From Caproicibacterium amylolyticum (GTDB lineage Bacteria; Bacillota; Clostridia; Oscillospirales; Acutalibacteraceae): a stretch of 64,000 nt of DNA. Position 1 is the first letter of the stretch; each line of letters begins with the position of its first letter. The position numbers and the translations under genes are program-made. Location of the stretch: NCBI RefSeq assembly GCF_014467055.1, contig NZ_CP060696.1, forward strand, positions 1,922,001 to 1,986,000, given 5' to 3'. Shown here piece after piece: positions 31,477 through 43,569 of this stretch. The notes under the pieces are model-generated. The model was not told the DNA's origin. It saw nothing but the letters and a program-made list of their open reading frames with translations, and did no database searches.

Positions 31477-32049
31477 TTAAGCATCCTCGTAAGTATGCAG
31501 AATATCTTCTGCAATATCCAAACGTGGGACACGCTGATCCATTGCCTGCTTTTCAATATAGCGATGTGCTTCCTGCTCTGTCAAATGCCGGTACTGCACC
31601 AGTGCACACTTTGCACGTCCAACCAGCTGCAGCTCATGAATTTTTTTCTGCAGCTTCTGATTTTCCTTCTGCAGTGCTTCCAAACGGCGTCCCGCTGCAG
31701 CCGCAATCCGCATGGATTGGTACAACAACATTCGGTTAATGGGCTTTTGTGCTACAATCACACCCGAAGCCTCGACCTTTGCGGAAACCGTTTCGTACAG
31801 CTCCGCTTTTACGACCAGCACAACACCCGCTTTTGTCTTTTCAGCCAAATCAGTTGCCAGTTCATGCCCAAACTCATCTTTCAGCGGTGCATTGATAATA
31901 ACCAGTTCGTAGTCATGCTGCATCACTGTGCGGCGCGCTTCACCGCCGGTTGCCGCACTGCTGAGCGACTTGACCGCATGAGTCCCCAGAAAATCCAGAA
32001 AATATTTTTGGCTTTTTTCCGTACTGGAAACAACTAAGACCTGTTCCAA
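31477..32049 (-). CDS. ANTAR-domain RNA-binding antiterminator with a degenerate receiver
   Basis: A 190-residue protein. Residues 1-110 have a receiver fold but lack the phosphorylation residues: the acidic pair is SS (VVSSTEKS) and the phosphoacceptor position is Asn53 (LVIINAPL). A coiled-coil linker (about 115-140, LQKENQKLQKKIHELQ) leads to a C-terminal ANTAR domain (GRAKCALVQYRHLTEQEAHRYI, AMDQR). ANTAR domains bind hairpins with A1/G4 hexaloops to prevent termination. Start is a TTG with GGTGAT five bases upstream. It follows glnA by 37 bases and is the last gene of the glutamate synthase operon. Confidence 0.9.
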   Translation of the reverse strand: MEQVLVVSSTEKSQKYFLDFLGTHAVKSLSSAATGGEARRTVMQHDYELVIINAPLKDEFGHELATDLAEKTKAGVVLVVKAELYETVSAKVEASGVIVAQKPINRMLLYQSMRIAAAAGRRLEALQKENQKLQKKIHELQLVGRAKCALVQYRHLTEQEAHRYIEKQAMDQRVPRLDIAEDILHTYEDA

Positions 32050-32085: not shown

Positions 32086-33408
32086 TTATACGGTCAGAAA
32101 ATATTCGCGGCGCTCAAACTCCTGCCCGTTGCCGGAGGTTCGGTAGCGCTCCCATTCCCTGCGTTTCTGACCAAAGTAGCTGACCCGTAGTTTTTCGGGT
32201 ACATAAGTCTGCACAAATTTACTGCGTTCCGCTGTCTGCAGAGCTTCATCCAGATTGCCCGGCAGATGCTCCAAATTAGAAGTTTCTTCCTCACTGGCCT
32301 CAAAAAGATTGCGGTTGTCCGGCGCGCAAAGCGGCAATTTTTCACGAACACCTTCCAAGCCAGCCCACAGCAGCAGTGCAAACGCAAGATGCGGATTACA
32401 GGCTGGGTCGGTGCTGCGAAGTTCCATGCGGCCATGCCCCGGATTCGGCGCCGCAGGGATGCGAATCAGCTGAGAACGATTCTGATGCGACCACGTTACA
32501 TATTTGGGTGCTTCAAAACGTCCAAACCGCTCATAAGAATTCGTAAGCGGGTTTAAAAACAATGTGATTTCCGAAACGCGCCGCAAGATTCCCGCCATAA
32601 AGCTTTCCGCCACCGCATTGTGCTTTCCGTTGTCCACCTGAAACAGATTTTCGCCGTCCTGTGTCAAAGACATATTCACGTGCAGGCTGCTGCCGCTGTA
32701 ACCCGGCAGCGGCTTCGGCATAAAGGATGCATACAAGCCACTGCCCTCCGCAATCGACTTGACTGCACCCTTAAAGGCAACAAAATTATCCGCGGCAGTC
32801 AAAATATCACTGTAGCGGAAGTCAATTTCGTTCTGCCCCGGCCCCTGCTCGTGCCGGCTGGTTTCCGGACGCAGTCCCATTGCCTCCAGTGCAAGACAGA
32901 TTTCACGACGAACATTTTCACACTTGTCGCGCGGTGCAGTATCACAGTAGGTGCCATAGTCGTACGGCTCCAAAGTCGGCTCCCCATTTTCATCCGTTTT
33001 GAACAGATAAAATTCGCAGGCTGTACCAACTTTACAGGAAAGTCCCATCTGCTTTGCTTCACGCACAGCCGCTTTCAGCAATGCCCGACAGTCCCCCTCA
33101 AACGGCTGACCGTCCGGATATTTGACATCACAGAAAAGACGCACCACCTGCCCGTGTGACGGGCGCCAGGGCATGACAGTAAAGGTACCGGGGTCCGGCA
33201 CCAAAAACAGGTCGGACTCCACTTCATTCATAAAGCCGCGCACAAAGCTGGCATCAAACCCAACCCCTGTGTCAAAGGCACGGTCCAGTTCGCAGGGCAT
33301 TACCGCCACATTTTTCTGCATTCCGTGAATATCACAAAATGCAAGGCGGATAAATTTTACGTCATTATCCTCCACATACTGCATAACTTCACTGCGTGTA
33401 TAATTCAT
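32086..33408 (-). CDS. glnA: Glutamine synthetase, type I
   Basis: Makes glutamine from glutamate, ammonia and ATP. The 440-residue chain shows the N-terminal latch Asp loop (FCDIHGMQKNV), the metal-binding EFYLFK and HEQGPGQNEID segments, SGSSLHVNMS, and the ATP-binding RIPAAPNPGHGRMELRSTDP region. The last Arg-rich block matches GSI. The length is typical of the GSI-alpha form. CCTAGGAGG precedes the ATG. It has its own promoter but also follows the split glutamate synthase genes, together a GS-GOGAT pathway. Confidence 0.95.
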   Translation of the reverse strand: MNYTRSEVMQYVEDNDVKFIRLAFCDIHGMQKNVAVMPCELDRAFDTGVGFDASFVRGFMNEVESDLFLVPDPGTFTVMPWRPSHGQVVRLFCDVKYPDGQPFEGDCRALLKAAVREAKQMGLSCKVGTACEFYLFKTDENGEPTLEPYDYGTYCDTAPRDKCENVRREICLALEAMGLRPETSRHEQGPGQNEIDFRYSDILTAADNFVAFKGAVKSIAEGSGLYASFMPKPLPGYSGSSLHVNMSLTQDGENLFQVDNGKHNAVAESFMAGILRRVSEITLFLNPLTNSYERFGRFEAPKYVTWSHQNRSQLIRIPAAPNPGHGRMELRSTDPACNPHLAFALLLWAGLEGVREKLPLCAPDNRNLFEASEEETSNLEHLPGNLDEALQTAERSKFVQTYVPEKLRVSYFGQKRREWERYRTSGNGQEFERREYFLTV

Positions 33409-33443
33409 TGCGGCACCTCCTAGGTTTTTTATTGAATAGGTCT

Positions 33444-33452
33444 ATTATAACA
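33444..33452 (-). promoter_or_regulatory. Extended -10 promoter of glnA
   Basis: TGTTATAAT on the minus strand is a TGn-extended -10 box, with no good -35 box at the right distance. It lies 36 bases before the start codon. Confidence 0.5.
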
Positions 33453-33520
33453 TGAAAGCATTTACTCTGAACAGCGGCAGATATTCCTGACTTTGAAGAT
33501 GGATTTTGCATTTCACAATC

Positions 33521-33568: not shown

Positions 33569-34294
33569 TTAGTTTCTGGTGTAAAGTGCCTTGTAGGGGT
33601 TCGCTGTATCCGGTGTCAGCACGAAAAAATGTGCAGAAAGAATTTCTTCCATATTTTCACCGAATTTTTCGCAGAATTCCTGCAGCAGCGGCTTAATCTC
33701 CGCTAAATCCTCCTCAGAAGCATCCACTGCCTTTACCTGCTGCGGCAAGTCCGCCGGAAGCATATCGGTACGTAAAAACATTTTGCCGCCGTGCATACCG
33801 GTACCGCAGAAGTTTCCAACCAGTGGACGGTTGCCTTCTTTATGCAGACCAAGCAGGATAATAATGCCGCCCGCCTGGTATTCGCCCAAAAAGCTGCCCG
33901 CACAGCCGCCAACCACCAGCTTCGGCTGTTTTTCTTTGTAGGCTTTCATGTGAATGCCCGCACGGTAGCCAATGCTGCCCTTGACAAAAATTCTGCCGCC
34001 ACGCATTGCATAGCCTGTGGCATCGCCGGAACTACCATAAATCGTGATGGTACCCTCATTCATGGTGTCTCCAGTGGCATCCTGTGCATTGCCGTGCACA
34101 TCGATATCACAGCCATCCTGATACGCACCGAGCGCGTTGCCGGGCGTGCCGTGAATAACAATATGCTTGCCGGAAAGACCAGCGCCGATGTAGCGCTGCC
34201 CAATGCAGTTGTCAATTTCAATTTCCGTATCCGGTGTATTGCGCACAGCCGTGTTCAGTTCTTGGAAATGCATATCTCCTGCTGTAATTTTCAT
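33569..34294 (-). CDS. Glutamate synthase, GXGXG (C-terminal) subunit of the split enzyme
   Basis: A 241-residue right-handed beta-helix protein equal to the C-terminal domain of GltB, which holds the ammonia-channel structure of the enzyme. Repeats of the G-x-G-x-G type are visible (YIGAGLSG, GNAQDATG, GSSGDATGYAMRGG, GSIGYRAG). In archaea and many clostridia this part is a separate gene, as here. It starts three bases after the stop of the flavoprotein gene and works with the subunits at 36349 and 37856. Confidence 0.9.
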   Translation of the reverse strand: MKITAGDMHFQELNTAVRNTPDTEIEIDNCIGQRYIGAGLSGKHIVIHGTPGNALGAYQDGCDIDVHGNAQDATGDTMNEGTITIYGSSGDATGYAMRGGRIFVKGSIGYRAGIHMKAYKEKQPKLVVGGCAGSFLGEYQAGGIIILLGLHKEGNRPLVGNFCGTGMHGGKMFLRTDMLPADLPQQVKAVDASEEDLAEIKPLLQEFCEKFGENMEEILSAHFFVLTPDTANPYKALYTRN

Positions 34295-34297
34295 TGC

Positions 34298-35539
34298 TCA
34301 GGCATCCCCTTTCTTTGCACCGGCCAGCTTTGCTTTGCGCTCAGTTTTGGCAAAAGCCATCAGCTGCGGATGCTGCTTAATCAGATCAAAGTCAATGGTG
34401 TCCAGCGGTGTTTTTTCCCGAATCAAAGAAGTGTAAATGCCAGCGCGCTTAATGTCACCAATCAGAATCATGCCCTTAAGCAGATTCTCCTTAGTAATCA
34501 GTTTTTTGTAAACACCGGGTGCGTGTGTTACATAAGCTTCGCCGTCGTAGCTGCCGGCAGTAATGATATGCAGGTTGAAAAAGCCAATCGCATTCATCGG
34601 CATTGCTTTATCATACAGCTCACTGCCGCCTGCCATATTTGCACCAGCCACCAGCCCCTGCATATGTGCGTTGGGCAGCAGTGCCAAAATGCGGTCTGCA
34701 TCTGTTGTAATATCGTGACTCTTGGCACAATCACCCGCCGCGTAAATATCCGGCACGGAAGTTACGCAAGTGTCGTCGGTGCAGATACCGCGGTTTACTT
34801 CACAGCCGGCCTGCTCTGCCAGTTCCACATTTGGACGAACACCGACCGCAACCACCAGCACATCAAAGCCCAGCACACGACCGCTTTTCAGCGTGGCAGT
34901 GTCCGCAGTAAACTGCGCGACACTATCGGAAAGGTAAAAGCTCACATTGTGTTTTTCAATGTGTTCCTGCATCATTGCAGAGCCTTCCTCATCCAGAATA
35001 CTGGGCAGAATGCGGTCTGCCATATCCACAACATCAATGTGCCCAACGCGCTCGGAAATACCCTCCGCACACTTCAGACCAATCAGGCCCGCGCCGATAA
35101 TCAGCACACGGCTTTCCGGTTTCAGTACCTTTTCCAGTGCTTTCGCGGAATCCAGTGTCATAAAGGTAAACTGATTCTTTACTAAATCCATGCCTGCCAT
35201 CGGCGGCACAAACGGATTGCTGCCAGTCGCCAGCATCAATTTATCATAAGGCAAAACTGTACCATCATCCATCACAACGGTTTTCGCAGCGCTGTCCACT
35301 TTTTCCGCGCGGTGTCCGATATAGGTTTTTACACCATTTTTTTCGTAAAAATCATCAGGGCGGTACTTCATGCGTTTCTCATCCGTTCTGCCAAGCAGCA
35401 GATACGAAATCAGTGGGCGGGAATAAACGGAATACGGCTCATCCCCAACAATCGTGATGCTGCCGGTTTTATCCTGGCTGCGGATACCCTCCACACAGCC
35501 AACGGCGGCGATGGAGTTGCCAATAATGACATAATTCAT
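34298..35539 (-). CDS. FAD/NAD(P)-dependent oxidoreductase of the glutamate synthase cluster
   Basis: A 413-residue flavoprotein with an N-terminal FAD-binding motif (VIIGNSIAAVGCVEGI), a central NAD(P)-binding motif (VLIIGAGLIGLKCAEGI) and the second FAD motif TSVPDIYAAGDCA. It belongs to the NirB/rubredoxin-reductase-like group, not the classical GltD type. It probably passes electrons from NAD(P)H to the ferredoxin partner encoded just upstream (gap seven bases) for glutamate synthesis. The ATG at 35539 has AGGGGG upstream and starts the Rossmann fold. Confidence 0.88.
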   Translation of the reverse strand: MNYVIIGNSIAAVGCVEGIRSQDKTGSITIVGDEPYSVYSRPLISYLLLGRTDEKRMKYRPDDFYEKNGVKTYIGHRAEKVDSAAKTVVMDDGTVLPYDKLMLATGSNPFVPPMAGMDLVKNQFTFMTLDSAKALEKVLKPESRVLIIGAGLIGLKCAEGISERVGHIDVVDMADRILPSILDEEGSAMMQEHIEKHNVSFYLSDSVAQFTADTATLKSGRVLGFDVLVVAVGVRPNVELAEQAGCEVNRGICTDDTCVTSVPDIYAAGDCAKSHDITTDADRILALLPNAHMQGLVAGANMAGGSELYDKAMPMNAIGFFNLHIITAGSYDGEAYVTHAPGVYKKLITKENLLKGMILIGDIKRAGIYTSLIREKTPLDTIDFDLIKQHPQLMAFAKTERKAKLAGAKKGDA

Positions 35540-35546
35540 AGCTGCT

Positions 35547-35981
35547 TTACCCCCTGTCCTCATAAACAATCGCCTGATTTGGGCAGCCGGTCACGCAGGC
35601 CGGTTCTCCGCAGGCGTTCTTCATACACAGTTCACACTTCTGTATCACACGGCCGTCTTCCGCAGGCATCACACAGCCGTAGGGACACACCAGCACACAG
35701 GTGTAACAGCCAACGCACTTATCTGTATCGACGCGGATAATTCCGTCATCAATGGACAGTGCGCCGGTAATACAGCTTTTTACACAGAGCGGATCTTCAC
35801 AGTGGCGGCAAGCAACAGCAAAATTCACGCTGTCCCCTTCTTCCACCTGAATGCGCGGACTGATTTTTTTATCTTTGAGTGCTGTCGGCATATACGTTTC
35901 GCCGGAATTGGCAAACGCACAGTTATATTCGCAAAGATGACAGCCTAAGCACCATTCCTCATTGACATAGACACGTTTCAT
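35547..35981 (-). CDS. Polyferredoxin with four 4Fe-4S motifs (HycB/DmsB type)
   Basis: A 144-residue electron-transfer protein. Cysteine groups are CLGCHLCEYNC, CRHCEDPLCVKSC, CVGCYTCVLVCP and CELCMKNACGEPACVTGCP, enough for four clusters. It should serve as electron carrier between the flavoprotein and the glutamate synthase core. ATGATG occurs at the start; GAGGTG lies five bases before the second ATG (35981), which I prefer over 35984. Confidence 0.9.
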   Translation of the reverse strand: MKRVYVNEEWCLGCHLCEYNCAFANSGETYMPTALKDKKISPRIQVEEGDSVNFAVACRHCEDPLCVKSCITGALSIDDGIIRVDTDKCVGCYTCVLVCPYGCVMPAEDGRVIQKCELCMKNACGEPACVTGCPNQAIVYEDRG

Positions 35982-36019
35982 CATGACACCTCATAAAGCG
36001 CTTATCTAAATTGTTTATT

Positions 36020-36343
36020 CGTGGTTTTTCCCTGCCCATACAGCAAAAGTTTCGCCCGCCTTTTCAAAGGCGGTGAGTGTGGGCGAAGCCCACGGTCTTA
36101 TCCCCTGACCGTAAAGCCCTTAGTATCAAAAAGAAGTAACAGCAGCGTTTCTCTGCGGCGGCGAAACCATGCCGCAAGGTCAAGGCCTTGGGAGCCTGAC
36201 TTGCAGGCTCCCAAACCCGCGAGCGCTTCTTAGGATACTAAGGACAAAAGTCGTGGCGGGCTTCGCCCCCACACCCCCAGTCGCTTTCTATGAAAGCGAC
36301 TGAAAGCAACTGCTGGGCGGGCTGGCGAAACCTTTACTGTAAG
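36020..36343. repeat. Dense cluster of palindromes inside the glutamate synthase operon
   Basis: The 367-base gap between two cotranscribed genes has no gene. It contains at least six inverted repeats: CCGCC/GGCGG (36057-36074), GTGGGC/GCCCAC (36079-36093), CGGTC/GACCG (36094-36111), GGGAGCCT/AGGCTCCC (36190-36212), a GTGG...CCAC stem with a GCTTCGCC top (about 36253-36272) and AGTCGCTTTC/GAAAGCGACT (36279-36301). A long-range pair CCTTAGTATC (36118-36127) and GATACTAAGG (36233-36242) encloses the middle part. It looks like a mobile palindromic repeat or a structured RNA. Confidence 0.6.
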
Positions 36344-36348
36344 GGTGT

Positions 36349-37854
36349 TTATTCCCCTGCGTGCTTAATGCCCAGAATCTCCAGTTCCTTTTCAGTCAGA
36401 CCGATTCCACGCAGCATCAGGCGGTTGCCTTTCAGGGCTTCAATGGAGTTAATACCCATACCGCCCATCATTTCCATAATCTCATGCTGCCATGCGCTGA
36501 CAAGGTTCACCAAGCGCTGGTAGCCAATATTTGGGTTTAAACGCTTTACAAGGTCGGGGCGCTGGGTGGCAATGCCCCAGTTGCACTTGCCGGTTTGGCA
36601 GCTGCGGCACAGATGGCAGCCGAGCGCCATCAGCGCGGCTGATGCAATATACACGGCGTCCGCACCCAGTGCGATTGCCTTTACAACGTCTGCCGCATTG
36701 CGGATGGAGCCGCCGACAACGATTGAAACGTTGTTGCGAATGCCCTCTTCGCGCAGACGGCGGTCAACGCTTGCCAGCGCAAGCTCAATCGGAATACCTA
36801 CGTTGTCACGAATGCGAGTCGGTGCGGCACCGGTGCCGCCGCGGAAACCGTCGATTGCGATAATATCCGCACCGCTGCGTGCAATGCCGCTGGCGATTGC
36901 CGCCACGTTATGTACGGCTGCAATCTTTACGATAACCGGCTTTTGATATGCGGTTGCTTCTTTCAACGAATATACCAGTTGGCGCAGATCTTCAATGGAA
37001 TAAATATCATGATGCGGTGCCGGAGAAATTGCATCACTGCCCTCCGGAATCATACGGGTGCGGGCAACGTCGCCCACGCTCTTGGTACCCGGCAGATGGC
37101 CGCCGATACCCGGCTTAGCGCCCTGCCCCATTTTGATTTCAATGGCGGCACCGGTATCCAGATAGCCCTTGTGTACGCCGAAACGACCTGAAGCGACCTG
37201 AACAATGGTATGCGGGCCGTACTGGTAAAAGTCCTTATGCAGGCCGCCCTCGCCGGTGTTATAGTAAGTGCCAAGTTCCGTTGCCGCGCGGGCAAGGCTC
37301 GCGTGTGCGTTGTAGCTGATGGAGCCATAGCTCATAGCGGAGAACATAATCGGAACATTCAGTTTGAGCTGCGGCGGCGTATTGATTTTCAGCGTGCCGT
37401 CCGCGTTGCGTTCCACGTGCTCCGGCTTTTTGCCGAGGTAAACACGGGTTTCCATCGGCTCACGCAGCGGGTCAATGGACGGGTTGGTAACCTGCGAAGC
37501 ATTAATGAGCATTTTGTCCCAGTAAACCGGGAAGTCATTGGGATTGCCCATGGAGGAAAGCAGCATGCCGCCGGACTCCGCCTGCCGATAAATTTCGGTA
37601 ATTGCCTGCATGCTCCAGTTTTTATTGAGTTTGAATGTATCTTCATTTTTTACGATTTTCAGCGCGTGTGTCGGGCAAAGAGAAACGCAGCGGTGGCAGT
37701 TTACACATTTGCTTTCGTCACTGCGCATTAAGCCCAGTTCCGGGTCATAGGTGTGCACTTCATTTGCACACTGCCGCTCGCATACGCGGCAGGCGATGCA
37801 CCGCTGCGGGTCGCGCAGAACTTCGTATTCCGGTACAATGTAATTGATAGCCAT
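36349..37854 (-). CDS. Glutamate synthase, central FMN/Fe-S (synthase) subunit of the split enzyme
   Basis: A 501-residue protein. Two 4Fe-4S ferredoxin motifs open it (CIACRVCERQC and CVNCHRCVSLCP), followed by the FMN-binding TIM barrel of glutamate synthase (AMSYGSISYNAH, TGEGGLHKDF, GQGAKPGIGGHLPG, GGTGAAPT) and the Cys-rich segment CHLCRSCQTGKC. It makes glutamate from 2-oxoglutarate and ammonia released by the amidotransferase subunit. The fusion of ferredoxin domains to the barrel is the archaeal-type layout. It begins two bases after the upstream subunit ends. Confidence 0.94.
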   Translation of the reverse strand: MAINYIVPEYEVLRDPQRCIACRVCERQCANEVHTYDPELGLMRSDESKCVNCHRCVSLCPTHALKIVKNEDTFKLNKNWSMQAITEIYRQAESGGMLLSSMGNPNDFPVYWDKMLINASQVTNPSIDPLREPMETRVYLGKKPEHVERNADGTLKINTPPQLKLNVPIMFSAMSYGSISYNAHASLARAATELGTYYNTGEGGLHKDFYQYGPHTIVQVASGRFGVHKGYLDTGAAIEIKMGQGAKPGIGGHLPGTKSVGDVARTRMIPEGSDAISPAPHHDIYSIEDLRQLVYSLKEATAYQKPVIVKIAAVHNVAAIASGIARSGADIIAIDGFRGGTGAAPTRIRDNVGIPIELALASVDRRLREEGIRNNVSIVVGGSIRNAADVVKAIALGADAVYIASAALMALGCHLCRSCQTGKCNWGIATQRPDLVKRLNPNIGYQRLVNLVSAWQHEIMEMMGGMGINSIEALKGNRLMLRGIGLTEKELEILGIKHAGE

Positions 37855-37855
37855 A

Positions 37856-38950
37856 TCAGAATTCCACCCCTTCGTTGAGTCTGAAAATCAATGGTTCCCC
37901 GCCGTTTGGCGACCAAATGCGGTCAAGCTCCGGCTGGATGCGGCGAATTGCACTTTCTTCACTTGCCACATACACAGTTTCGCCCTTTTCCGCTGCAACC
38001 ATAGAGCGCAGCTTCAGGCGGTCGTTCAGCGCCATCATGCCACCGGAGAAACCCAACAGAATGGAGAACGGTCCGGTTATCAGCATACTTGCAAAAGTAT
38101 TGCGCAGATAGGTCATCTGGCTGCGCTTGGGCTCCGGCATGGTTTCGATCGTGCTCCAGAACGGCGCCGCAATTACGCCGGCAACCTCCTCCAGCGTCAG
38201 ACCTTGACGGCGGTTCAGGTAATCCACAATATAGGTGATCGCTTCAGTATCTGTCATCAGGTTGCAGCTGTAACCGTACATTTCCACACTGCGGCGGTTT
38301 GCGTCGTAGGAGGAAATCTCACCGTTATGTACGATGGAATAGTCCAGCAGTGCAAACGGATGCGCGCCGCCCCACCAGCCGGGGGTATTTGTCGGGTAAC
38401 GGCCGTGTGCTGTCCAGCAGTAGCCTTCGTATTCTTCCAGCTTGTAAAAGCGTCCTACATCTTCGGGGTAGCCAACCGCCTTGAAAACGCCCATATTTTT
38501 ACCGGAAGAAAACACATAAGCGCCGTCAATGTGTGCGTTGATTTTCATTACACAGCGCATAACATATTCGCGCTCGTCCAGCTGTGCATCGTGCAGTTTG
38601 CGCGGCAGCGGATAAACGAAGTAGCGCCAAATGAGCGGGGCATCAGTAATGCCAGGGGTCTGGCGGGTAGGAATCTTAGAAAGACTTTCCACCTCAAAGT
38701 GGCGGGAAAGAAAATCTTCTACTGTTTCACGCACCGCGGCGTTGTCATAAAAAACATGAAATGCGTATGCATCCTTGTGCTCCGGATAAATTCCGTACCC
38801 AGCAAAACCGCCGCCTAAGCCGTTGCTGCGGTCATGCATGACCGTAATGGAATCAATCATGCTTTCGCCGCTAACGCGTCTGCCGTCTTTGCAGAACAAT
38901 CCTGCAATCGCGCAGCCGGAGGGAATGTGGTACTGGCCTTCTTTTTGCAT
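37856..38950 (-). CDS. Glutamate synthase, class II glutamine amidotransferase subunit of the split enzyme
   Basis: A 364-residue protein equal to the N-terminal domain of GltB. It hydrolyses glutamine and supplies ammonia to the synthase subunit. The catalytic Cys is probably Cys13 (PSGCAIAGLF), which would need removal of a 12-residue propeptide; other family motifs are RYPTNTPGWWGGAHPF, HNGEIS and DTEAI. GGGAGG decides the ATG at 38950 over the longer frame to 39025. It is the first gene of the operon and follows a hairpin-terminator leader. Confidence 0.92.
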   Translation of the reverse strand: MQKEGQYHIPSGCAIAGLFCKDGRRVSGESMIDSITVMHDRSNGLGGGFAGYGIYPEHKDAYAFHVFYDNAAVRETVEDFLSRHFEVESLSKIPTRQTPGITDAPLIWRYFVYPLPRKLHDAQLDEREYVMRCVMKINAHIDGAYVFSSGKNMGVFKAVGYPEDVGRFYKLEEYEGYCWTAHGRYPTNTPGWWGGAHPFALLDYSIVHNGEISSYDANRRSVEMYGYSCNLMTDTEAITYIVDYLNRRQGLTLEEVAGVIAAPFWSTIETMPEPKRSQMTYLRNTFASMLITGPFSILLGFSGGMMALNDRLKLRSMVAAEKGETVYVASEESAIRRIQPELDRIWSPNGGEPLIFRLNEGVEF

Positions 38951-39023: not shown

Positions 39024-39075
39024 AAAAAAATTGTTCATTAAACGGAATTTACAGAAAAATCCCGCCTAATGAACA
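39024..39075 (-). terminator. Conditional terminator in the glutamate synthase operon leader
   Basis: TGTTCATTA (minus 39075-39067) pairs with TAATGAACA (39040-39032), with further pairing of GGCGGGAT against ATTCCGT inside, followed by a run of seven T residues. It lies before the first gene, in the leader, so it must be regulated or partial. Confidence 0.85.
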
Positions 39076-39084
39076 TCTTTGTTC
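39071..39084 (-). promoter_or_regulatory. ANTAR-type hexaloop hairpin, glutamate synthase operon leader
   Basis: On the minus strand GAAC-AAAGAT-GTTC forms a 4-bp stem with a six-base loop that has A at position 1 and G at position 4, the signature of ANTAR-bound RNA. Its 3' arm GTTC is also the start of the terminator arm, so the two structures exclude each other. It begins about four bases after the predicted transcription start. The family usually has two such hairpins; I see only one. Confidence 0.7.
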
Positions 39085-39094
39085 GCTGGTTTTT

Positions 39095-39123
39095 ATTATA
39101 CGCATATATATTGTTTAAGTCAA
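39095..39123 (-). promoter_or_regulatory. Promoter of the glutamate synthase operon
   Basis: TTGACT (39118-39123) and TATAAT (39095-39100), 17-base spacer, giving a leader of about 140 bases. Confidence 0.8.
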
Positions 39124-39253: not shown

Positions 39254-39282
39254 TTGACAAGCGAAGCACACGGGCATATAAT
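39254..39282 (+). promoter_or_regulatory. Promoter of the type III glutamine synthetase gene
   Basis: Perfect TTGACA (39254-39259) and TATAAT (39277-39282) with 17 bases between. Predicted start near 39289. The 434-base divergent gap between the two nitrogen units holds the two promoters and two leader switches and little else. Confidence 0.85.
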
Positions 39283-39293
39283 GCAAAGTATAA

Positions 39294-39309
39294 GTAGCAA
39301 AGGCGCTGC
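39294..39309 (+). promoter_or_regulatory. ANTAR-type hexaloop hairpin, type III glutamine synthetase leader
   Basis: GTAGC-AAAGGC-GCTGC folds into a 5-bp stem (one G-U pair) with a hexaloop having A1 and G4. The loop end and 3' arm overlap the 5' arm of the terminator at 39301-39336, so formation of one prevents the other. It starts about five bases after the predicted transcription start, as in the divergent leader. Confidence 0.75.
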
Positions 39310-39336
39310 GGTTTTAAACCGCTGCGCCTTTTTTTA
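39301..39336 (+). terminator. Conditional terminator in the type III glutamine synthetase leader
   Basis: AGGCGCTGCGGTTT pairs with AAACCGCTGCGCCT (39316-39329, one U-U mismatch) and is followed by seven or more T residues, 48 bases before the start codon. Confidence 0.9.
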
Positions 39337-39384
39337 TTATTTTTTAAAGTTTTGCAAATTCATGCAACTTGGAGGTATCAAGTT

Positions 39385-41481
<2,097 letters not shown>

Positions 41482-41663: not shown

Positions 41664-42245
41664 CTAAAATGTTCGCATAGTTGTAAAGGGGAAAAATCGT
41701 ACCGCGACCTTGCCAATAATGTTGGAAGTACTGACTGCGCCAATTTGCCGGCTGTCAGTGGAATGGTTTCTGTTGTCTCCCATTAGAAAAACTCTGCCCT
41801 GTGGAACTGTCATATCCACATCAGCACCTTCCCACGACTGTTCTTTGATATAATCCTCGGTCAGCTTTTGGCCATTTAACGTAACTGAGCCGTTGTACAC
41901 AGTAATGTGATCCCCTGCAACCGCAATTACACGCTTAATCAGATTTTCCTGCAGAATGTTTTTATTGTTGACCACTACAATATCCCCATGCTGCGGCTGA
42001 TAATTCAATTCCCAAAGCATCACCATGTCACCGTCCTGGCAGGTGTTCTGCATACTGATGCCAATCACCCGGCTGGGGCGCGCAACAAAGTTGCAAAAAA
42101 GCAGCGTTGCCGCAATCGTCAAAACAATGGGCAGAATCCAGGAACGCGGATTTTCTTTTTTTACAGACTTTTTGTTTTTCTGTTCTGCGGTGGGGTCCTC
42201 TGGGCTCTGTTCACAGCCTTGGCCGCTTCCCTTTGATTCTTCCAT
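41664..42245 (-). CDS. lepB: Type I signal peptidase (third of three tandem copies in transcription order)
   Basis: A 193-residue membrane serine protease that removes signal peptides. A hydrophilic N-terminal tail is followed by one membrane span (WILPIVLTIAATLLFCNFVA), the catalytic Ser in GISMQNT, the catalytic Lys in LIKRVIAVAGD and box E GDNRNHSTDSR. The Ser motif has Asn where most enzymes have Pro (SMxPT). GGGAGGGAAAGG before the ATG at 42245 decides the start. It is followed by the glnN-facing terminator. Confidence 0.93.
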   Translation of the reverse strand: MEESKGSGQGCEQSPEDPTAEQKNKKSVKKENPRSWILPIVLTIAATLLFCNFVARPSRVIGISMQNTCQDGDMVMLWELNYQPQHGDIVVVNNKNILQENLIKRVIAVAGDHITVYNGSVTLNGQKLTEDYIKEQSWEGADVDMTVPQGRVFLMGDNRNHSTDSRQIGAVSTSNIIGKVAVRFFPFTTMRTF

Positions 42246-42282
42246 GCACCTTTCCCTCCCTGTTGTGACAGTTTCAACAACT

Positions 42283-42867
42283 TTAAAATGTGCTGAACTG
42301 ATTAAACGGATAGACACGCAGAGCCACTTTCCCTAAAACATCGGCGCACTTAACCGGACCAATCACGCGGCTGTCTGCAGAGTTGTTTCGATTGTCACCC
42401 ATAAGAAAGACCTGCCCCTGCGGAACTGTCAAATCTACATTTGCACCATTCCACTGTTGCTCCTTGATATAGGCTTCTGTTAACTTCTTTCCATTTAACG
42501 TAACTGTTCCGTTTGACACAACAATATGGTCGCCGCCAACTGCAATCACGCGCTTAATTAGATTTTCCTGCAGCGCATTTTTGCTATTTGGAATTACAAC
42601 GTCCCCGCGCTGCGGCTGATAGCCCAACTTCCAAATAAAAACGAAGTCATTGTTGTGAAACGTATTTTGCATACTGTCACCCACCACATAAGCAGGCTGC
42701 GCCACAAATGCACAAAACAGCAGTGCTGCCGCAAAGGTGATTACCATCTGCAGAATCCACGTCCACGGGCTGGATTTTTTGATTTTCTGGTCTGTTCCGG
42801 TTCCCTGTGCTGCTTCCAGCTCATCCGAATCATAATCCGCGCCGAACTTTTCTACATTACCGTCCAC
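42283..42867 (-). CDS. lepB: Type I signal peptidase (second tandem copy)
   Basis: A 194-residue paralogue of its neighbours: acidic N-terminal tail, one membrane span (WILQMVITFAAALLFCAFVA), Ser in GDSMQNT, Lys in LIKRVIAVGGD, and GDNRNNSADSR. The start needs a choice: AGGAGG is directly followed by an ATG (42873), which leaves no spacing, while the in-frame GTG at 42867 is six bases away; I use the GTG. It is 53 bases downstream of the first copy. Confidence 0.92.
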   Translation of the reverse strand: MDGNVEKFGADYDSDELEAAQGTGTDQKIKKSSPWTWILQMVITFAAALLFCAFVAQPAYVVGDSMQNTFHNNDFVFIWKLGYQPQRGDVVIPNSKNALQENLIKRVIAVGGDHIVVSNGTVTLNGKKLTEAYIKEQQWNGANVDLTVPQGQVFLMGDNRNNSADSRVIGPVKCADVLGKVALRVYPFNQFSTF

Positions 42868-42920
42868 TTTCATCCTCCTGCCAGCCGCTGATTTCTAAAT
42901 ACTGTGTCAAAAACTTAGAC

Positions 42921-43532
42921 TTAGAATGTACCGAATTTATCAAACGGATAAACACGAAGAACCACTTTGCCCGCTATGCTGGAACAACTGATTGGGCCAA
43001 CCACGCGACTGTCCGTAGAGTTGTTCCGGTTGTCACCCATTAAAAACACCTGCCCCTGTGGAACGGTCAAGTCCACGTTGGTGCCGTCCCACTGCTGCTC
43101 TTTAATATAAGCTTCTGTCAGCTTTTTGCCGTTGCGCGTAACCGTTCCGTTTGACACCACAATGTGGTCACCACTAACACCAATCACGCGCTTAATCAGG
43201 TCTTCACGTTTGTCGGCAGCAATGGCAATATTATTGGCAATGACAACATCTCCAAACTGCGGTTGGTAACCCAGCTTCCAGATAAACACAAAGTCGTTGT
43301 TTTGAAACGTGTTCTGCATACTGAAACCTATCACATAGCGCGGCTGCGCAACAAAGGCACAAAACAACAGTGCTGCTGCAAAGGTAATCACCATGGTTAA
43401 AATCCAGGAAAGCGGGCCGTCCTTTTTCTTTTCCTGTTTTTCCGCCGCAGGCTGCTGTGCTTCCGGTACAGTTGTTTCTAAAGCAGCATCCGCATTAGGG
43501 GCTGCCGATGTTTCTTTGATTTCTGGTTCCAT
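42921..43532 (-). CDS. lepB: Type I signal peptidase (first tandem copy)
   Basis: A 203-residue signal peptidase with a Glu/Ala-rich N-terminal tail, one membrane span (WILTMVITFAAALLFCAFVA), the Ser motif GFSMQNT, the Lys in LIKRVIGVSGD and GDNRNNSTDSR. Between the Ser and Lys boxes it has a small insertion (AIAADKRED) not present in the other two. AGGAGG before the ATG at 43532 decides the start. It is 37 bases downstream of the flippase-like gene, so all four may be cotranscribed. Confidence 0.93.
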   Translation of the reverse strand: MEPEIKETSAAPNADAALETTVPEAQQPAAEKQEKKKDGPLSWILTMVITFAAALLFCAFVAQPRYVIGFSMQNTFQNNDFVFIWKLGYQPQFGDVVIANNIAIAADKREDLIKRVIGVSGDHIVVSNGTVTRNGKKLTEAYIKEQQWDGTNVDLTVPQGQVFLMGDNRNNSTDSRVVGPISCSSIAGKVVLRVYPFDKFGTF

Positions 43533-43569
43533 TTTAACCTCCTGCAGCACTTGACTGCACTGCTATGAA

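Follow-up and report, generated by a model that had tools for sequence, protein, structure and literature searches.

Divergent leaders at a nitrogen locus

The window, by which we mean the whole stretch of 64,000 nucleotides of Caproicibacterium amylolyticum DNA that was analysed, contains a type III glutamine synthetase gene (GSIII, glnN) and, divergent from it, the genes of a split glutamate synthase. A type I-like glutamine synthetase gene and a gene for an ANTAR protein lie on the same strand as the latter. The features are given by window position and strand, with their evidence in parentheses.

39254..39259, plus: −35 hexamer TTGACA of the GSIII promoter (sequence reading, pattern matches)
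39277..39282, plus: −10 hexamer TATAAT after a 17-nt spacer (start predicted near 39289)
39294..39309, plus: single hexaloop hairpin GTAGC-AAAGGC-GCTGC, proposed antiterminator, with A at loop position 1 and G at position 4 (A1/G4) (RNAfold, conserved in relatives)
39299..39335, plus: intrinsic terminator, stem 39299-39331 and T-run 39329-39335 (RNAfold)
39371..39375, plus: ribosome-binding site GGAGG (sequence reading)
39385..41481, plus: type III glutamine synthetase, GSIII, glnN, ATG at 39385 (GSIII_N, Gln-synt_C-ter, Gln-synt_C)
39095..39123, minus: promoter of the gltA unit, TTGACT 39123-39118 and TATAAT 39100-39095, spacer 17 (pattern match)
39071..39084, minus: hexaloop hairpin of the gltA leader, GAAC-AAAGAT-GTTC (RNAfold)
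39032..39075, minus: terminator of the gltA leader, overlapping the 3′ arm of the hairpin (RNAfold)
37856..38950, minus: glutamine amidotransferase subunit of the split glutamate synthase ("gltA"), first gene of the unit (GATase_2; the other match is weak, below all cut-offs)
33569..37854, minus: rest of the split glutamate synthase cluster (profile matches)
36349-37854, minus: Glu_synthase
35547-35984, minus: Fer4
34298-35569, minus: Pyr_redox
33569-34294, minus: GXGXG
32086..33408, minus: glutamine synthetase, type I-like (NCBIfam GlnA best, 388 bits, cut-off 429)
31477..32049, minus: pseudo-receiver ANTAR protein, proposed antiterminator (the single ANTAR over the cut-off in the genome)

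Between 33569 and 38950, separate genes encode the amidotransferase, synthase, GXGXG, ferredoxin and oxidoreductase parts of the split glutamate synthase. The glutamine synthetase-ANTAR operon has a TATAAT-like element at 33380-33460 on the minus strand, and no hexaloop leader was seen there; by contrast, the glnA leader of one relative (L415 in genome G015) does carry a hexaloop. Three similar tandem ORFs at 41664-43550 resemble signal peptidase I by eye.

The GSIII promoter (TTGACA-17-TATAAT) agrees with the consensus at 12 of 12 bases. Transcription was predicted to start near 39289, 7 nt past the −10 hexamer by rule of thumb, and the small hairpin (stem GTAGC 39294-39298, loop AAAGGC 39299-39304, stem GCTGC 39305-39309) begins 11 nt past the −10 hexamer and about 5 nt past that start. 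When the first 22-28 nt of the RNA were folded with RNAfold (39289-39310 and 39289-39316), this hairpin was the minimum free energy fold at −6.5 kcal/mol. Folding of the first 48 nt (39289-39336) gave instead the terminator 39299-39331 at −22.4 kcal/mol (z −4.2), followed by seven T. To build its 5′ arm the terminator takes up the hexaloop and (part of) the 3′ arm of the small hairpin, and the two structures are therefore mutually exclusive; the 5′ arm of the small hairpin, GTAGC, falls outside the terminator. Because the gene upstream of GSIII is divergent, the terminator cannot end a same-direction upstream gene and is a leader element by position. Taken alone, the fold of the small hairpin is not significant (z −1.1 and −1.8), and its significance derives from position, overlap and conservation, not from fold energy. 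No Rfam family matched the window at its gathering score.

The gltA leader has the same design with a different stem. A preliminary description had placed a hairpin with an A1/G4 loop about five bases from the predicted start in both leaders and had seen it overlap a strong terminator before GSIII, and for the GSIII leader the sequence reading and the folding agree with it on these points. Its judgement that two such copies are unlikely to arise by chance is in line with two pattern searches. The pattern TTGACN-N17-TATAAT-N8..20-CAANGRYG had two matches in the window, the two leaders, and none in 100 dinucleotide shuffles, and TATAATN{8,20}CAANGRYGN{12,42}TTTTT matched the 2,996,201-base genome exactly twice, at the GSIII and gltA leaders, with no match to the reversed pattern, both patterns having been designed after the sites were known. 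In other genomes this −10/loop/T-run pattern finds chance matches too, as does its reversed control, and in the window's own genome it misses the leaders of a second GSIII gene and of amt, which differ in details.

One conserved hexaloop before GSIII genes of relatives

Conservation was assessed in 150 genomes of the window's family, which represent 135 genera. In 120 of them the GSIII query scored at GSIII level (E below 1e-60); a tally of 139 was set aside, as it included 19 weak matches (E above 1e-13) that are probably other glutamine synthetases. Among the matches listed, 130 GSIII leaders from 110 genomes formed the leader set, from which fragments, places cut by contig ends and the full-length genes of G046 and G060 (a second copy) were left out. 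Hairpins with six-base loops that overlap a terminator were collected from these leaders without selection on the loop. The A1/G4 class occurred 73 times, and the other 15 classes of loop positions 1 and 4 occurred 5-19 times each (190 in all). Conversely, when the loop was fixed and the stem left unselected, 68 of 99 occurrences of C-AANGRY-G had a stem of at least 4 bp, compared to 7 of 93 for six control loops. We defined a core as C-A[AG]NG[AG][CT]-G with a stem of at least 4 bp. Of the 130 leaders 59 had it, compared to 0-6 of 130 in every one of 20 shuffles; the reverse-complement strand, at 16 of 130, is compromised as a control by the divergent gltA leaders that it carries. The stem started 8-12 nt past the −10 hexamer in 42 of the 51 leaders with a good promoter.

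The preliminary description had read covariation from the two leaders of the window. That comparison is only suggestive; among relatives, covariation is found. Stem pairs change in step (CAGC/GCUG, CGGC/GUCG, AAAGGC/GUCUUU, GAAC/GUUC, GGAC/GUUC). As had been expected of related leaders, the hexaloop is retained while the stems differ. In 67 GSIII hairpins 58 cells were double-changed, compared to 22 in shuffles, and a mixed set of 67 hairpins had 81 cells changed on both sides against a shuffle mean of 32. Since both sets were preselected for pairing, the stem test on C-AANGRY-G loops is the cleaner result. In alignment A1, columns 5/16 and 6/15 alternate between A-U plus G-C and G-C plus G-U, as if total stability were constant.

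Hexaloop and terminator mostly occur together, and terminators without the core exist. With two short leaders dropped, 44 of 56 core leaders from genomes with an ANTAR protein had a terminator-like hairpin no more than 230 nt from the gene, as did 2 of 3 from genomes without one; for core-less leaders the counts were 15 of 39 and 7 of 30. Terminators that persist in relatives without the hexaloop had been named beforehand as evidence against the switch: 22 of 69 core-less leaders are of this kind, and most core leaders have both elements.

These data bear on the possibility of a constitutive terminator that fixes expression at a low level, the 5′ hairpin either protecting the RNA or being a by-product of the terminator arm. 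Stem-loops at the 5′ end can stabilise RNA, and conservation of the hairpin is partly shared with the terminator because loop and 3′ arm belong to both. The 5′ arm, however, lies outside the terminator and yet changes together with the 3′ arm in relatives, loops other than A1/G4 are not enriched, and the element tracks ANTAR and nitrogen genes. We regard a constitutive terminator as very improbable.

A second A1/G4 hexaloop (stem of at least 3 bp, linker of 3-16 nt) was not enriched near 69 units: three were found upstream and three downstream, no more than the 0-7 for each other loop class, in a scan run without a verified dual element as positive control. Scanning the surroundings of other ANTAR genes for dual hexaloops yielded no clear positive control. 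Given also the promoter position, the lack of enrichment points to a single hexaloop at the predicted start of the RNA. The core matched twice in 10 of the 130 leaders. The second match in L091 is without a T-run and is probably due to chance, which leaves nine leaders where a single GSIII gene is preceded by two serial units (L012, L017, L018, L036, L061, L064, L071, L073 and L079). A third, near-core unit is present in L071, and near-core second units were noticed in L031 and L049. The extra hexaloop units are about 60-135 nt away, beyond a terminator.

An ordinary ANTAR target with two hexaloops, P1 and P2, would look similar if transcription started further upstream or a weak P1 had been missed, the visible hairpin then being P2. 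The further units in some leaders would fit such an arrangement, and a passage of PMC3369931 has P2 of known targets overlapping the terminator as well. We nevertheless consider it unlikely: the promoters 8-12 nt upstream of most hairpins, the distance of the extra units past a terminator and the scan of the 69 units, with the control noted above, all argue against it, and the single hexaloop remains our preferred reading.

The ANTAR protein and other genes with the element

ANTAR proteins were found in 91 of the 150 family genomes. Of the 110 genomes with GSIII leaders, 54 of 74 with an ANTAR protein and 4 of 36 without had the core in a GSIII leader. One of the latter, G083, turned out to have an ANTAR orthologue cut by a contig end, and the corrected counts are 55 of 75 and 3 of 35 (Fisher p 8e-11, not corrected for ancestry). 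Among the genome-wide matches listed for the −10/loop/T-run pattern, a stem of at least 4 bp was seen in 40 of 76 from genomes with ANTAR and 4 of 18 from those without. For 20 of the 75 ANTAR-containing genomes no core was found in the GSIII leaders examined, and cross-reading identified the element on another gene or GSIII copy in at least 10 of these. A convincing element with no ANTAR detected was found in six genomes of varying draft completeness: before GSIII in G006 (96%), G072 (84%) and G130 (91%), before gltA in G147 (75%), and at L350 in G004 (97%) and L395 in G148 (99%). The ORF after L395 is weakly similar to ATP synthase subunit A and is not a nitrogen gene.

The window's genome has one ANTAR protein over the cut-off; a second weak match (86188) was discarded as MurQ-like by eye. 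In 29 of 30 orthologues fetched, the ANTAR gene comes after a type I glutamine synthetase gene on the same strand. The phospho-acceptor Asp, its position set by ungapped alignment to 1s8n, is absent in 30 of 30, replaced by Asn in 29, including the window's protein, and by His in L145; the window's protein in this respect departs from the EutV type, and its receiver domain scores below the Pfam cut-off. When aligned by eye with the RNA contact residues of EutV, as given in passages of PMC8934654, it keeps K149, E160, M172 and R175, has Arg for K147 and, like AmiR, His for Y164, does not keep R142, K143, R168 and R177, and has Asp for N173. The R175 position is Cys in 7 of the 30 orthologues. 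A second ANTAR subfamily was noticed among 13 proteins extracted from 14 regions, one of which (L346) is a classical receiver-ANTAR protein and does not belong to it. Its members apparently lack the phospho-acceptor Asp by eye, and 6 of 12 adjoin a type I glutamine synthetase gene (L335, L338, L339, L341, L344 and L345).

In the window's own genome the element precedes four genes. Besides the GSIII gene at 39385 and gltA, these are the second GSIII gene (L045/L183, C1:601546), with TTGACT-17-TATAAT by eye, the hairpin ACAGT-AAAGGC-GCTGT and a terminator, and amt (L174, C1:859883), with a 3-bp stem (GGC-AAAGGC-GCC), a promoter and a terminator. The L045/L183 hairpin has a U-G closing pair. A further site, L417 (C1:2044837, minus strand), has GGAAC-AAAGGC-GTTCC together with a symmetric terminator-like hairpin, shows no consensus promoter and is followed by an ORF resembling, by eye, an iron-type alcohol dehydrogenase. 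Thirty loci each were fetched for gltA and Amt from relatives, and with a stem of at least 3 bp and a T-run as requirements, the element was present in 16 of 26 complete gltA loci and 16 of 21 complete Amt loci.

Ten further hexaloop matches in relatives, chosen among the best matches to model R1 and not a full survey, precede eight other genes, each in one or two cases:

asnA: L354
asnB: L399, L403
gdhA: L369, L406
glutamate synthase large subunit: L412
glnA: L415
pyrG: L410
purC: L413 (no clear T-run)
dapF: L373

By eye, a promoter lies just upstream in 7 of the 10 and is absent at L369, L373 and L403. Of 80 organism-titled loci, 35 had the core and a T-run when U-G closing was allowed, among them records of Claveliimonas, Christensenella and Syntrophomonadaceae; an ANTAR signature was present in the fetched stretch for 13 of these 35 compared to 5 of the other 45. 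Models R1 and R2, at 20 nt, were used only in context, being too short to search a genome cleanly: most of their matches in the window's genome had no recognisable promoter and T-run by eye, and R1 at E ≤ 0.003 matched 100 of 150 genomes, many of them ANTAR-negative. Twenty ANTAR-negative R1 matches were fetched, with promoter and terminator at L395 only; of four more (L350, L363, L368 and L376), L350 and L368 had both. L168 was not counted, its hexaloop being about 40 nt from the start predicted by a TTGACA-17-TATACT promoter by eye.

The switch could be real and be opened by another RNA-binding protein or by a metabolite. The six genomes in which elements were found without ANTAR, the receiver domain that cannot be phosphorylated in the usual way and the several EutV contacts that are not kept would all be explained. 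Against this, the A1/G4 hexaloop is the ANTAR signature according to passages of PMC3369931 and PMC8934654, element and ANTAR co-occur strongly, and G083 moved from the negative to the positive genomes on closer reading. We consider another binder quite unlikely. With one ANTAR protein in the genome and the co-occurrence, both units are best read as served by one RNA-binding protein; the preliminary description had proposed just that, and the six ANTAR-less genomes are what speaks against it.

A proposed attenuator and its relation to known ANTAR systems

We propose that the GSIII leader is a nitrogen-controlled transcription attenuator read by the ANTAR protein through a single hexaloop, and assign this reading a probability of roughly 0.78; ANTAR binding, the direction of control, the nitrogen signal and antitermination in vivo are inferred from sequence. 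By default, RNA polymerase would start near 39289 and the small hairpin would form first, to be replaced by the more stable terminator, which would end transcription ahead of GSIII. Under nitrogen shortage, the ANTAR protein (31477-32049) would bind A1 and G4 of the hexaloop within the first ~20 nt of RNA and keep the hairpin loop and 3′ arm out of the terminator, allowing GSIII to be made. The gltA unit, the second GSIII gene and amt would respond together with GSIII. Because the Asp is absent and the gene follows that of a type I-like glutamine synthetase, the input to the ANTAR protein is probably a protein or a metabolite and not phosphorylation; the adjacent synthetase is possibly this input.

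On a wider scale, the hairpin stands before many nitrogen genes of related gut and rumen bacteria, and one RNA-binding protein probably keeps it open there. A more detailed generalisation is tentative and, in our estimate, rather doubtful: throughout the family and in other Clostridia, a non-phosphorylated pseudo-receiver ANTAR protein would take its signal from the preceding type I glutamine synthetase and grip one hexaloop at the very 5′ end while polymerase is leaving the promoter, and serial units would steepen the response of this nitrogen regulon. Such an arrangement would explain how rumen and gut bacteria could control GSIII, GOGAT and ammonium uptake together, and it makes glutamine synthetase as the nitrogen sensor of an RNA-binding protein a testable idea. 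It may also provide a minimal system, a 22-nt RNA and one protein, in which to ask how antitermination outruns a terminator.

Passages of the ANTAR literature describe dual-hexaloop antiterminators for EutV/eut, NasR/nasF and AmiR/amiE (Ramesh et al., 2012; PMC3369931). For EutV, deletion of P1 abolished induction and both hairpins were needed (PMC3369931), and work of 2012 used dual hexaloops to predict ANTAR antitermination at nitrogen genes, those for glutamine and glutamate synthases among them (PMC3369931, PMC3369936). A review passage states that NitR of Clostridium saccharobutylicum is said to induce GS/GOGAT by antitermination under nitrogen limitation (Stutz et al., 2007; PMC6316151). 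As with NitR, the ANTAR protein described here is linked to glutamine synthetase and glutamate synthase genes; compared to that passage, the present set extends to GSIII, Amt, asn, gdh and others, with a defined RNA element. In the open-access literature, with most subscription papers outside it, we found no description of single-hexaloop antitermination of GSIII, gltA or Amt, nor, in the same literature, of a group of attenuators that each carry just one hexaloop at the start of the RNA.

The EutV-RNA structure, in the passages on which we draw, has one ANTAR dimer contacting one hexaloop, with a single-hexaloop minimal motif, and its authors hold that termination is prevented only when both hexaloops of a pair are contacted (Walshe et al., 2022; PMC8934654). 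Single-hexaloop sites were foreseen there for situations in which transcribing polymerase sets no time limit (PMC8934654). Unlike that expectation, as worded in those passages of PMC8934654, a single hexaloop stands here before terminators on many genes, which suggests that nature can dispense with P1. The leaders share with dual-hexaloop ANTAR targets the six-base A1/G4 loop, the short stem, the overlap of the leader hairpin with an intrinsic terminator that makes the two exclusive, the nitrogen genes and an ANTAR gene in the same genome. They differ in that no second hexaloop at short linker distance is enriched, a point on which the preliminary description is silent, the single hexaloop sits at the predicted 5′ end with about 5 nt of RNA before it, and there is one unit per terminator, sometimes with two or three units in series. 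Judged by these sequence features, the switch works like ANTAR antitermination; by the dual-hexaloop definition it is not a member of that group, and it is instead a real single-hexaloop variant on nitrogen genes.
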